Below are positions 154 through 9,083 of a stretch of DNA of 9,083 bases, in pieces. The position numbers were made by a program, and so were the translations under genes. Where the stretch lies: assembly GCA_040752395.1 (NCBI GenBank), contig JBFMHD010000115.1, positions 1 to 9,083 on the forward strand. Reading direction: 5' to 3'. Source of the stretch: JBFMHD01 sp040752395 [NCBI: Candidatus Hydrogenedentota bacterium] (lineage in GTDB: Bacteria > JBFMHD01). Each line of letters starts with the position of its first letter. The first letter of the stretch is position 1. The notes below the pieces were generated by a model. That model worked only from the letters and a program-made list of their open reading frames with translations, ran no database searches and was not told where the DNA came from.

Positions 154-333
154 GAGGAGTACTCATGAGCGCAGGTTGCGCTCTACACTATTGTGTTATT
201 GGGTTCTTGGGTTATCGCGTTTTTGGGTTTTTGCGCTCTACACAACGTATGAAAAACCAGATGTTTGTTTATCTTGCTTCTTGCCTCTTGCCTCTTGCTT
301 CTATTTGATATTATTAGAGTTACAGCGTTTTTC
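154..333 (+). repeat. Dispersed leader-ORF repeat, copy 1
   Basis: About 180 bp, + strand. In order: a Shine-Dalgarno GAGGAG (154-159), ATG at 165, a hairpin GAGCGC-AGGTT-GCGCTC (167-183), degenerate octamers (gtgttatt, gggttctt, gggttatc, gcgttttt, gggttttt), a second GCGCTCTACAC (233-243), a conserved stretch around ATGAAAAACCAGATG, CTTGCCT-like heptamers, and the right end ATTAGAGTTACAGCG followed by TTTTTC at 333. It matches copy 2 over its whole length but has two extra heptamers, so it is 14 bp longer. It ends one base before the Shine-Dalgarno of the gene at 349. Confidence 0.85.
165..308 (+). CDS. Putative leader ORF of repeat copy 1 (47 aa)
   Basis: The ORF starts at ATG 165, 5 bases after GAGGAG, and ends with TGA at 306-308. 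It encodes a 47-residue hydrophobic peptide that begins MSAGCALHYCVIGFLGY. The same start context and N-terminus (MSAGC, then A or V, then LHY) occur in copies 2 and 3. The C-terminal half differs because octamer and heptamer counts shift the frame. The good ribosome-binding site supports translation, but the repetitive origin and variable tail mean the peptide itself may have no function. It ends 40 bases before the next start, so coupling is weaker here than in copy 2. Confidence 0.3.
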   Translation: MSAGCALHYCVIGFLGYRVFGFLRSTQRMKNQMFVYLASCLLPLASI

Positions 334-2785: not shown

Positions 2786-2958
2786 TAATAAAAACCCCCC
2801 TTCGAAAAACATTGTAACTCTAATGATATCAAGTAGAAGCAAGAAGCAAGATAAACAAACATCTGGTTTTTCATCCTTTGTGTAGAGCGCAAAAACGCAA
2901 TAACCCAATAACCCAATAACCCAATAACCCAATAGTGTAGAGCGCAACCCGCGCTCAT
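2785..2958 (-). CDS. Putative leader ORF of repeat copy 2 (57 aa), coupled to the GGQ gene
   Basis: On the - strand the ORF starts with ATG at 2958, 5 bases after GAGGAG (2969-2964). It encodes 57 mostly hydrophobic residues beginning MSAGCALHYWVIGLLGYW and stops with TAA at 2787-2785. That stop shares its last A with the ATG of the GGQ-protein gene (TAATG). The good ribosome-binding site and stop-start overlap suggest that ribosomes finishing the leader could reinitiate on the rescue-factor gene. The peptide is made from repeat sequence, so a regulatory role for its translation is more likely than a peptide function. Both are inference. Confidence 0.4.
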   Translation of the reverse strand: MSAGCALHYWVIGLLGYWVIAFLRSTQRMKNQMFVYLASCFYLISLELQCFSKGGFY

Positions 2959-2969
2959 GTTGACTCCTC
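2804..2969 (-). repeat. Dispersed leader-ORF repeat, copy 2
   Basis: About 166 bp, in the same orientation as the downstream GGQ gene. Read on the - strand: GAGGAG, five bases, ATG, hairpin GAGCGC-GGGTT-GCGCTC, four perfect GGGTTATT octamers, GCGTTTTT, a second TTGCGCTCTACAC, ATGAAAAACCAGATGTTTG, two TTGCTTC heptamers, and the end ATCATTAGAGTTACAATG followed by TTTTTC. This is the cleanest of the three copies. No terminal inverted repeats are obvious, and no target-site duplication can be assigned. Confidence 0.88.
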
Positions 2970-4618: not shown

Positions 4619-4924
4619 ATGAAAAAATATTTTATTAATCTTACTGAAAAGGACAGGATACGAGTTGAAATAACAGTTAGTAAAGGCAAAATATTAAATT
4701 TTGTTGTGCAATTAGAAACTTTTCTAATTAATAATTGGGAACCCGCAGTACGATATAATTATGCGCATGGCTTTCCACATAAAGATTTGATTTTTAGAAA
4801 TGGTAAAAAAATTAAAGAAAATATTTCAGAAGAAAGTCTGTCAAAGATAGTTAATTGGGCAATTAATGAACTAAAAATAAATTGGAAAAAATATTTAAGG
4901 AGGTGCGGTTTTGAAAAATTATAA
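4619..4924 (+). CDS. Small hypothetical protein with R-Y-x-x-A-H-G-x-x-H-x-D motif (DUF7718-like)
   Basis: This 101-residue protein contains VVQLETFL (29-36) and VRYNYAHGFPHKD (44-56). The motif Arg45-Tyr46-x-x-Ala49-His50-Gly51-x-x-His54-x-Asp56 recalls small uncharacterised proteins of the DUF7718 type; I make that link from memory and with moderate confidence. The two His and the Asp could bind a metal or phosphate, but no activity is known. The ATG at 4619 has GAAGGAG (4598-4604) 14 bases upstream, which is longer than ideal. The gene overlaps the next small gene by 14 bases, so the two form a unit. Both are visibly more A-rich than the nuo genes on either side, which suggests separate acquisition into the operon. 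Confidence 0.7.
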   Translation: MKKYFINLTEKDRIRVEITVSKGKILNFVVQLETFLINNWEPAVRYNYAHGFPHKDLIFRNGKKIKENISEESLSKIVNWAINELKINWKKYLRRCGFEKL

Positions 4925-5069
4925 AATTTTAAAAAATAAAAAAAGAGAAAAGTTGATGCAGGAAAATCTCGAATTAGCAAGAAAGTTTCTGTTAGAGATT
5001 GTAAAAAATCCCAGTAAGACGAAAAACATACCTTCAGGTGCTACTATTATACTTTATCCAGTTAGATGA
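4911..5069 (+). CDS. Small hypothetical protein (52 aa), partner of the preceding gene, DUF5647-like
   Basis: This gene is short and starts with TTG at 4911. A perfect Shine-Dalgarno AAGGAGG (4897-4903) lies 7 bases upstream, inside the end of the preceding gene, which decides the start. It ends at TGA 5067-5069. The product is very basic at the N-terminus (Lys-rich, residues 2-14). It then has NLELARKFLLEIVKNP (19-34) and IPSGATIILYPV (40-51), a pattern resembling small DUF5647-type proteins (helix, then I-P-x-G-A-x-I-x-x-x-P), although the usual acidic end is missing. An internal ATG at 4956 would give only 37 residues and lacks a good ribosome-binding site. The overlapping two-gene layout resembles toxin-antitoxin modules, but no toxin fold can be recognised. 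Confidence 0.65.
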   Translation: MKNYKILKNKKREKLMQENLELARKFLLEIVKNPSKTKNIPSGATIILYPVR

Positions 5070-7266: not shown

Positions 7267-8303
7267 ACCTTATTGAAAAATTTTTAGGTAATTTTATACC
7301 AGATAACTACGTGATAATTGTTTCAGTTATTATATTCTTTGGTATTATCTTATCTATCCTTTCATTATATAATCTCTTTATTGTCTGGCTTGAGCGCAAA
7401 GTCGCGGGTCATATGCAGGTTCGACCAGGCCCAATGGTTACAGGTGGTTTTCATGGCTGGCTGCAGACAGTTGCTGATGGTATAAAACTTTTCTTAAAAG
7501 AAGATATTATCCCCAAAGAAGCTGATAATATTTTCTTCTGGATATCTCCTGCGCTTATTATGGCGGTCTCATTTGCGGTCTGGGTCTGCATCCCCCTTGG
7601 CATCGATTTAATTCCTGCTGACCTTAATCTTGGTATCTTCTTTATAATTGCGATATCTTCTCCAGTAGTAGTTGGCATTGTAATGGCTGGCTGGGCTTCA
7701 AAAAACAAATGGGCGATGCTCGGCGCATTCAGGTCAGCTGCACAGATTGTCTCTTATGAAATACCAGTCGCTCTCTCAATCCTGCCACCTATTATTTATG
7801 CAGGCACACTTTCTATGACAGGCATTGTAGATCTTCAGATAGGCGGGTTCTGGAACTGGCTTGTCTTTAGAAACCCATTCTTATTTTTAACTTTTATTAC
7901 TTATTATATCTCAGCTGTTGCTGAAGTTAACAGGTCACCTTTTGATCTACCTGAAGCTGAGAGTGAACTTGTTGCAGGGTTTCATACAGAATACAGCGGT
8001 ATGCGGTTTGCTATGTTCTTTTTTGCTGAATACTCGAATATGCTCGCAGTAAGTGCCATCGCAGTAACTCTGTTTCTTGGCGGCTGGTCTGGTCCGCTAC
8101 CTACATCTTTTGTACTCCGTATACCTGTTTCAGTCTTAAACTTTTTTGCTAAAACTATGTTTCTTGTATATCTGATGATATGGTTTCGGTGGACTTTCCC
8201 GAGACTTCGAGTCGACCAGCTTATGAACCTGTGCTGGAAATTTTTTATACCGCTATCATTTATTAATCTATTCGGAACAACTTTGTGGAAACTTTTATTA
8301 TGA
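7263..8303 (+). CDS. nuoH: NADH-quinone oxidoreductase subunit H (NuoH)
   Basis: NuoH is the multi-helix membrane subunit that connects the quinone site with the antiporter-like subunits. The 346-residue protein has about eight predicted membrane segments. Signatures: WLERKVAGHMQVRPGP (42-57), GWLQTVADGIKLFLKED (65-81), FRSAAQIVSYEIPVA (156-170) and AEVNRSPFDLPEAESELV (220-237), followed by AGFHTEYSGMRFA. The charged residues on these loops line the entry to the quinone chamber. nuoH follows nuoD directly, so nuoE, nuoF and nuoG are not at their usual place in this operon. It overlaps nuoD and nuoI by ATGA at both ends. Confidence 0.96.
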   Translation: MNLIEKFLGNFIPDNYVIIVSVIIFFGIILSILSLYNLFIVWLERKVAGHMQVRPGPMVTGGFHGWLQTVADGIKLFLKEDIIPKEADNIFFWISPALIMAVSFAVWVCIPLGIDLIPADLNLGIFFIIAISSPVVVGIVMAGWASKNKWAMLGAFRSAAQIVSYEIPVALSILPPIIYAGTLSMTGIVDLQIGGFWNWLVFRNPFLFLTFITYYISAVAEVNRSPFDLPEAESELVAGFHTEYSGMRFAMFFFAEYSNMLAVSAIAVTLFLGGWSGPLPTSFVLRIPVSVLNFFAKTMFLVYLMIWFRWTFPRLRVDQLMNLCWKFFIPLSFINLFGTTLWKLLL

Positions 8304-8776
8304 AATTTTTATCTTATTTTAAAGAAATTTATTCAAGTATCTACTCACTAATCGTTGGAATGCTTATAACAAATAAATATTTATTTAAACCCATCTTCAC
8401 AGTTCAATATCCGTTCGAAACACTGATATTCAAAGACCGGTTCCGTGGCATTGTTTTTAATGATATTTCTGACTGTATAGTCTGTGGCATGTGTGCCAGA
8501 ATCTGTCCACCTGGTTGCATAAACTTAAAATCAGAAAAGCGTAGTCCCGAAGAAACAATACCCCTTACATCAGATGGCAGAAAAAAAATGCTGAAACTTA
8601 CTACTTATATAATAGATATATCTAAGTGTATGTTCTGTGGCTTATGCACAGAGGTCTGTCCCACTAAATGCCTTAAGATGACAAAAAAGATAAAAGGGCT
8701 GATAAGTAATGACTACTATGATAGAAAATTGCTTATCTATGATTACATCGCACTAAATAGTAAGGAGTTAACATGA
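8300..8776 (+). CDS. nuoI: NADH-quinone oxidoreductase subunit I (NuoI), 2x[4Fe-4S] ferredoxin-like
   Basis: NuoI holds clusters N6a and N6b, which pass electrons to N2 in NuoB. The 158-residue protein contains two CxxCxxCxxxCP motifs, CIVCGMCARICP (Cys59, 62, 65, 69) and CMFCGLCTEVCP (Cys110, 113, 116, 120), enough for two [4Fe-4S] clusters. The N-terminus has the family's amphipathic helix ahead of the FKDRFRG segment (45-50). The start at ATG 8300 is preferred over GTG 8285 because it forms the ATGA overlap with the nuoH stop, the same arrangement seen at nuoD-nuoH. The stop codon itself overlaps the ATG of repeat copy 3. Confidence 0.95.
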   Translation: MKFLSYFKEIYSSIYSLIVGMLITNKYLFKPIFTVQYPFETLIFKDRFRGIVFNDISDCIVCGMCARICPPGCINLKSEKRSPEETIPLTSDGRKKMLKLTTYIIDISKCMFCGLCTEVCPTKCLKMTKKIKGLISNDYYDRKLLIYDYIALNSKELT

Positions 8777-8868
8777 GCGCGGGTTGCGTTCTACACTATT
8801 GGGTTTTTGGGTTTTTGGGTTCTTGGGTTATTGGGTTATTGCGTTTTTGCGCTCTACACAAAGCATGA
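8773..8868 (+). CDS. Putative leader ORF of repeat copy 3 (31 aa), overlapping the nuoI stop
   Basis: ATG at 8773 overlaps the nuoI stop as ATGA and is served by AAGGAG 5 bases upstream. The 31-residue peptide begins MSAGCVLHYWVFGFLGSW and stops at TGA 8866-8868. The different octamer count puts the end in another frame, so it is shorter than in copies 1 and 2. An ATGA junction with a good ribosome-binding site is what one expects for the next nuo gene, so this may be the original nuoJ initiation site with the repeat placed directly after it. Confidence 0.35.
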   Translation: MSAGCVLHYWVFGFLGSWVIGLLRFCALHKA

Positions 8869-8873
8869 AAAAC

Positions 8874-9039
8874 TAAAGATGATATAAAAAGAGTCGTGAG
8901 TCACAAGTCGCAAGTCGTGAGTCAAAACAAGACTCAAGACTCAAGACTTTTCAGCAGGCTCCGGGCTTTTGTCTCCAGCCGGCTGTAGTCCGTAGCCTGT
9001 AGCCTGTAGCCCGTCCTGACACCTCTCACTTCTTCCGTT
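8874..9039 (+). repeat. Nested heptamer block inside repeat copy 3
   Basis: This block consists of GAGTCGT/AAGTCGC-type heptamers (about 8891-8923), inverted GACTCAA heptamers (8931-8951), a GC-richer linker, CTGTAGC/CCGTAGC heptamers (about 8983-9013), and a CTCACTTCTTCCG segment. GAGTC and GACTC units can pair (for example 8912-8923 with 8931-8942) and are followed by TTTT at 8948-8951, so a weak intrinsic terminator or attenuator is possible. The same GAGTC/GACTC type occurs at 88-152. Confidence 0.6.
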
Positions 9040-9083
9040 ATCTTGCTTCTTGCTTCTACTTGATATCATTAGAGTTACAATGT

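Follow-up and report, generated by a model that had tools for sequence, protein, structure and literature searches.

The window, that is, the whole stretch of 9,083 nt that was analysed, contains three copies of one dispersed repeat family. The first copy (c1) occupies positions 155–333 of the plus strand and runs from the left edge AGGAGTACTCATGAGCGC, through an octamer array, to a right module that closes with GTTTTTC. The second copy (c2) is located at 2804–2968 on the minus strand, where its left edge, AGGAGTCAACATGAGCGC, is read from position 2968 downward and its GTTTTTC right end falls at 2810–2804. The third copy (c3) begins at 8763 on the plus strand and is cut by the end of the window at 9083, its right end and the gene downstream of it lying outside. 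The coordinates of an earlier note on this DNA were approximately right; the present mapping places c2 on the minus strand and shows that c3 is both longer, by about 150 nt, and truncated by the window.

The same note had claimed a dispersed family of three copies, and this is borne out by pairwise similarities of 84–100% over 46–136 nt. In ungapped comparisons, c1 and c2 share 90% identity over 136 nt and 86% over 57 nt, while c2 and c3 share 91% over 81 nt, 96% over 67 nt and 100% over 46 nt. For c1 and c3, the corresponding values are 84% over 81 nt and 92% over 39 nt. The repeat family is genuine, and the homology of its members extends from a left edge common to three different contexts as far as a right edge shared by the two copies in which that end is visible.

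This left edge reads AGGAGT-NNN-C-ATGAGCGC in all three copies. In other words, it consists of a Shine–Dalgarno (SD) sequence, exactly five bases and ATGAGCGC, just as had been reported. The pattern AGGAG-N5-ATGAGCGC occurs exactly three times in the window, once per copy, and a search allowing up to three mismatches gave one other match, with three. After the start comes a 6-bp inverted repeat, GAGCGC-N5-GCGCTC, the first stem base of which is the G of the ATG. Read directly from the sequence, the start codon and hairpin lie at 165–183 (plus strand) in c1 as GAGCGC-AGGTT-GCGCTC, at 2940–2958 (minus strand) in c2 as GAGCGC-GGGTT-GCGCTC, and at 8773–8791 (plus strand) in c3 as GAGCGC-GGGTT-GCGTTC, where one G-C pair is changed to G-U.

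The order of elements within the repeat is a left block with the hairpin, an octamer array of the TTGGGTTA type, a second GCGCTCTACAC block and a tail. The hairpin and the array are separated by TCTACAC. The array consists of 5.6 units in c1 (TATTGGGT, 189–233, plus strand), 5.6 units in c2 (2890–2934, minus strand) and 6.4 units in c3 (8799–8849, plus strand), so its unit number varies among copies, as in a minisatellite. On the 3' side of the array, the second GCGCTCTACAC is followed by ATGAAAAAC and then by the tail, which contains heptamers of the TCTTGCT type along with a TTGATATCATTAGAGTTACA block (slightly altered in c1). The middle of c3 holds about 150 extra nt between its two halves, at approximately 8883–9035, and these are largely other tandem heptamers.

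RNA folding of the copies gave no gain over shuffled sequences (z of 0.31, −0.04 and −1.22 for c1, c2 and c3), and a search of the whole window against Rfam at the gathering threshold returned no match to a known structured RNA leader. Two further candidates were set aside. For a G-quadruplex in the octamer array, counting by eye gave three, four and five GGG runs in c1, c2 and c3, which is too few in c1. A portable promoter was likewise not retained, as 30 promoter-like sites were found in the window against a shuffle mean of 32.5; among the sites listed, none is inside c1 or c2 and three are in c3.

GTTTTTC is the last block common to c1 and c2, and the right edge is visible in these two copies only. 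In c1, it ends at 333, leaving 15 nt before the ATG at 349 of a 78-aa open reading frame (ORF) on the plus strand (349–585; no Pfam match), and an AGGAG is present at 336, just past the mapped right edge and before this ORF. In c2, it ends at 2804, with 18 nt between it and the ATG at 2785 of a minus-strand gene of 139 aa with an RF-1 domain in Pfam (2366–2785). This short protein resembles a ribosome-rescue factor. The proposal that the first two copies end ahead of the initiation region of the next gene was thus correct. Both are also oriented with that gene, and c3 runs along the nuo operon. A ribosome-binding site and start codon at one end are found in 3/3 copies, and stopping before the next start is seen in two.

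The left edge of c3 covers the last 14 nt of a nuoI-like gene (8300–8776, plus strand, 158 aa, with 4Fe-4S domains in Pfam), the TGA stop of which overlaps the left ATG as ATGA. Elsewhere in the window, a DUF7718 gene is located between nuoA and nuoB at 4619–4924 (E 3.2e-26, with a weak, sub-cutoff match to the TscA antitoxin). It is overlapped by a small ORF at 4911–5069, which has a strong SD before its TTG and no Pfam match.

One reading of this arrangement is a portable translation leader, in which the left SD-ATG would start an upstream ORF that opens the next gene, couples to it or switches it through the octamer number. We consider this reading unlikely, despite several features in its favour beyond the constant SD-N5-ATG edge and the placement of the two visible right ends 15–18 nt before an ATG. 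For instance, the ORF starting at the left ATG of c2 ends in TAATG, overlapping the ATG of the RF-1 domain gene. The composition of the edge itself points in the same direction. The five-nucleotide spacer between SD and ATG has pairwise identities of 2/5, 2/5 and 4/5, and the 29 nt from the left ATG onward have 28, 27 and 28 of 29. As the spacer is more variable than the flank downstream, its variability would fit a constraint on the SD and the ATG. Moreover, AGGAG stands 4–9 nt before an ATG at four sites in the window, against 1.23 expected, and these are the three left edges and the start of the ORF directly after c1. Against this, 14 of 200 shuffles of the window also reach four such sites, and AGGAG occurs outside the repeat too: it precedes the TTG at 4911 by 8 nt and the ATG at 4619 by 14 nt. 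Weaker SD-like 4-mers precede the starts at 582 and 7263.

The upstream ORF itself argues further against a leader. It is 47 codons long in c1, 57 in c2 and 31 in c3, its frame and length differing between copies because the number of repeat units changes. A conserved leader peptide was rejected on account of these shifts of the reading frame. In c1, the ORF stops 40 nt short of the next gene, and the TAATG coupling geometry is found in c2 only. The arrays are poor in stop codons, with several frames open through them; among 5000 shuffled c2 sequences, 340 retain an open ORF of the c2 length (56 codons). All these counts come from only three copies. What stands of the spreading translational leader proposed before is therefore the SD-N5-ATG edge (3/3) and the position of the right end (2/2), whereas conservation of frame and coupling does not. 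The leader interpretation is supported in part, by this anatomy, from which a selected leader function does not follow. A more elaborate version describes an element that starts with an SD and ATG, ends against a second SD and settles before gene starts. Such an element would always leave behind a working initiation site and an upstream ORF that switches coupling by its octamer count; this we regard as improbable.

Another possibility is that the repeat inserts into start regions, with the SD and the ATG supplied by the host site, in c3 if not in the other copies. The left edge of c3 looks like a native nuoI/nuoJ junction, and ATGA overlaps are also found in the same operon between nuoD and nuoH (7263) and between nuoH and nuoI (8300). 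The end of nuoI is complete at 70 of 80 related loci, and 63 of the 70 yielded an ORF behind it. This ORF shares bases with the nuoI stop in 29 cases, has an SD-like 4-mer upstream in 34, and combines both in 17; these ORFs were counted without confirmation as nuoJ and without a shuffle control, and such 4-mers are common by chance. The spacer varies more than the rest of the edge, which would also agree with a host-derived SD and ATG.

Additionally, c1 is flanked by a direct repeat matching at 11 of 12 positions, TTTTTAGAGGAG (148–159) and TTTTCAGAGGAG (329–340), which includes the SDs at both ends. None of 1000 shuffles did as well, in a comparison picked after the repeat had been seen. The T-run of this direct repeat is, on the other hand, part of the right end common to c1 and c2, and an equivalent end duplication is absent at c2 (401 of 1000 shuffles as good). 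A further argument against insertion into start regions is that identical AGGAGT and ATGAGCGC motifs are present in c1 and c2 as well, at places with no known native gene start; this identity suggests that the edge may travel with the repeat. Taken together, an origin of the SD and ATG from the host site is about as unlikely as a leader.

A related idea is that c3 is the source, i.e., that the start region of nuoJ was turned into a repeat and then spread elsewhere. In some relatives (loci L030, L041, L034 and L039), the ORFs after nuoI start with ATGAGCG or ATGAGT, which is near ATGAGCGC. On the contrary side, the sequence of c3 located 3' of ATGAGCGC is the shared repeat, and nuoJ itself lies outside the window. 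Such an origin appears very improbable.

The best explanation, which we hold with slightly better than even confidence, is a small non-autonomous, non-coding repeat resembling a miniature inverted-repeat transposable element (MITE) with an internal minisatellite. The unit would measure about 165–180 bp (more in c3) and comprise the hairpin-bearing left block, the minisatellite, the repeated GCGCTCTACAC block and the tail. It may spread as a unit, whether the route is transposition in trans or recombination, and would be tolerated beside genes, aligned with their transcription. The SD, the ATG and the hairpin are parts of its left end, which is conserved in the three copies. Any influence on the neighbours would probably be passive, arising from a short upstream ORF with no fixed frame and from an SD-like purine run past the right end.

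In size and copy number, the family agrees with a MITE (50–1000 bp, several copies, no transposase coding), as the window has three copies of 165–321 nt with no conserved reading frame. The classical signatures of mobility were also sought. No terminal inverted repeats were found, the best match being of 4–5 nt, with 193–917 of 1000 shuffles as good and with the right end of c3 cut. Beyond the mapped edges of the first two copies, no target duplication was detected (for c1 and c2, 842 and 641 of 1000 shuffles did equally well), and no transposase family was found among the 13 window proteins scanned. Counting against a MITE-like repeat are also the facts that the SD-ATG spacer is less conserved than the 29 nt from the ATG onward, that c1 and c2 are each directed toward the gene that follows and that c3 is not cleanly intergenic, with its left edge overlapping the nuoI end.

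Palindromic elements of the REP-like and IS200/IS605-derived families offer a different comparison, in which the GAGCGC hairpin would act as a recognition end. In all three copies, a GGAG lies 7 nt 5' of this small conserved hairpin, as read directly. The dispersal of the repeat and its short hairpin with a 5' tetranucleotide recall REPs and GTAG-tagged palindromes (PMC3733652), but size, tag and location all differ. The unit here is of at least 165 nt and not 20–40, the tags given in the cited part of that paper are GTAG and CGTC, and REPs are described there as lying mostly downstream of coding regions, whereas c1 and c2 are just upstream of ORFs. A REP-like nature is the least probable of the readings, hardly to be expected, and the earlier view that this is not a usual REP proved sound: the repeat is no 20–40 bp palindrome with a GTAG or CGTC tag, and has GGAG 7 nt from the stem instead.

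Among known systems, cyanobacterial STRR sequences are degenerate 7-nt tandem arrays. They resemble the degenerate heptamer arrays around the present copies, but the repeat itself is a defined mosaic unit.

A parallel to a MITE-like mosaic is BrickBuilt of Porphyromonas gingivalis, a MITE with an internal minisatellite and a leader–minisatellite–tail architecture, the copies of which are described as all intergenic (PMC4596501). Both elements have a leader, a tandem array of variable unit number and a tail, and both occur between genes. Unlike the present repeat, in which no terminal inverted repeats were found, BrickBuilt carries them, and its units are of 23 nt instead of 8 nt; the SD-ATG edge is absent from the BrickBuilt description in the cited part of the paper (PMC4596501). 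In marine Beggiatoaceae, TAACTGA heptamers are found mostly just upstream of start codons, and a role in translation was proposed for them (PMC4679880). The likeness consists in short tandem repeats before start codons. As far as the cited account goes, the TAACTGA repeat overlaps the expected SD position in bacteria where SDs are rare, in contrast to the mosaic of at least 165 nt described here, with its SD-ATG at the far edge (PMC4679880). Literature searches for similar elements or arrays brought no paper on this repeat to our notice.

Searches beyond the window covered genome and viral contigs, related loci, and plasmid and phage collections. An exact 20-nt core gave no match in genome_contigs or viral_contigs, and neither the right-end 21-mer nor a 27-nt octamer run was found in viral_contigs. 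Four viral contigs contained a 17-mer from the left block, and one contained an 18-mer from the second block; all five were taken as chance because BLAST extends to no more than 17–22 nt of the repeat.

Relatives of the window were sought in genome_contigs through NuoD, with a search seeded by six octapeptides and loci coming from GTDB genomes; the best identity was 62% (best 80 of 221 examined). The NuoD tree tentatively places the window, on a long branch, beside a likewise long Eisenbacteria row, with support of 92/88 that is subject to a long-branch warning. Of 47 genomes in the same phylum as this row, 42 had a NuoD match, the best at 58–59%. A 29-nt core, allowing up to three mismatches, was absent from all 245, 199 and 47 genomes searched in three groups reached via NuoD-related loci, none of them shown to be the host's own; the 199 were sampled from a larger group. 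A 20-nt match in locus L026 was attributed to chance; it lies on the opposite strand, a short way upstream of nuoD and apparently inside nuoC coding sequence.

Any copies elsewhere in the genome matter for the meaning of this family. If they keep SD-N5-ATG and stop before starts, the family would be a dispersed repeat by which translation signals are installed, and would lend itself to testing how operons are spared harm from intergenic repeats. If not, it would be another small mosaic repeat of an uncultured lineage.

When c2 was compared with plasmid and phage collections, the octamer array alone was matched, in five and one records, respectively. A similar GGGTTATT octamer array was noted at 1501–1545 of L091, a record of Vibrio parahaemolyticus, where a hypothetical gene and clpX flank it; no gene is annotated in this DNA, although the gene table of the collection is incomplete. 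In the window itself, degenerate heptamer arrays followed by complementary heptamers, and thus able to form hairpins, are present at 88–150, 8905–8952 and 8953–9012, and their energy is lower than that of nearly all mononucleotide shuffles (3, 0 and 4 of 200, respectively, as good).
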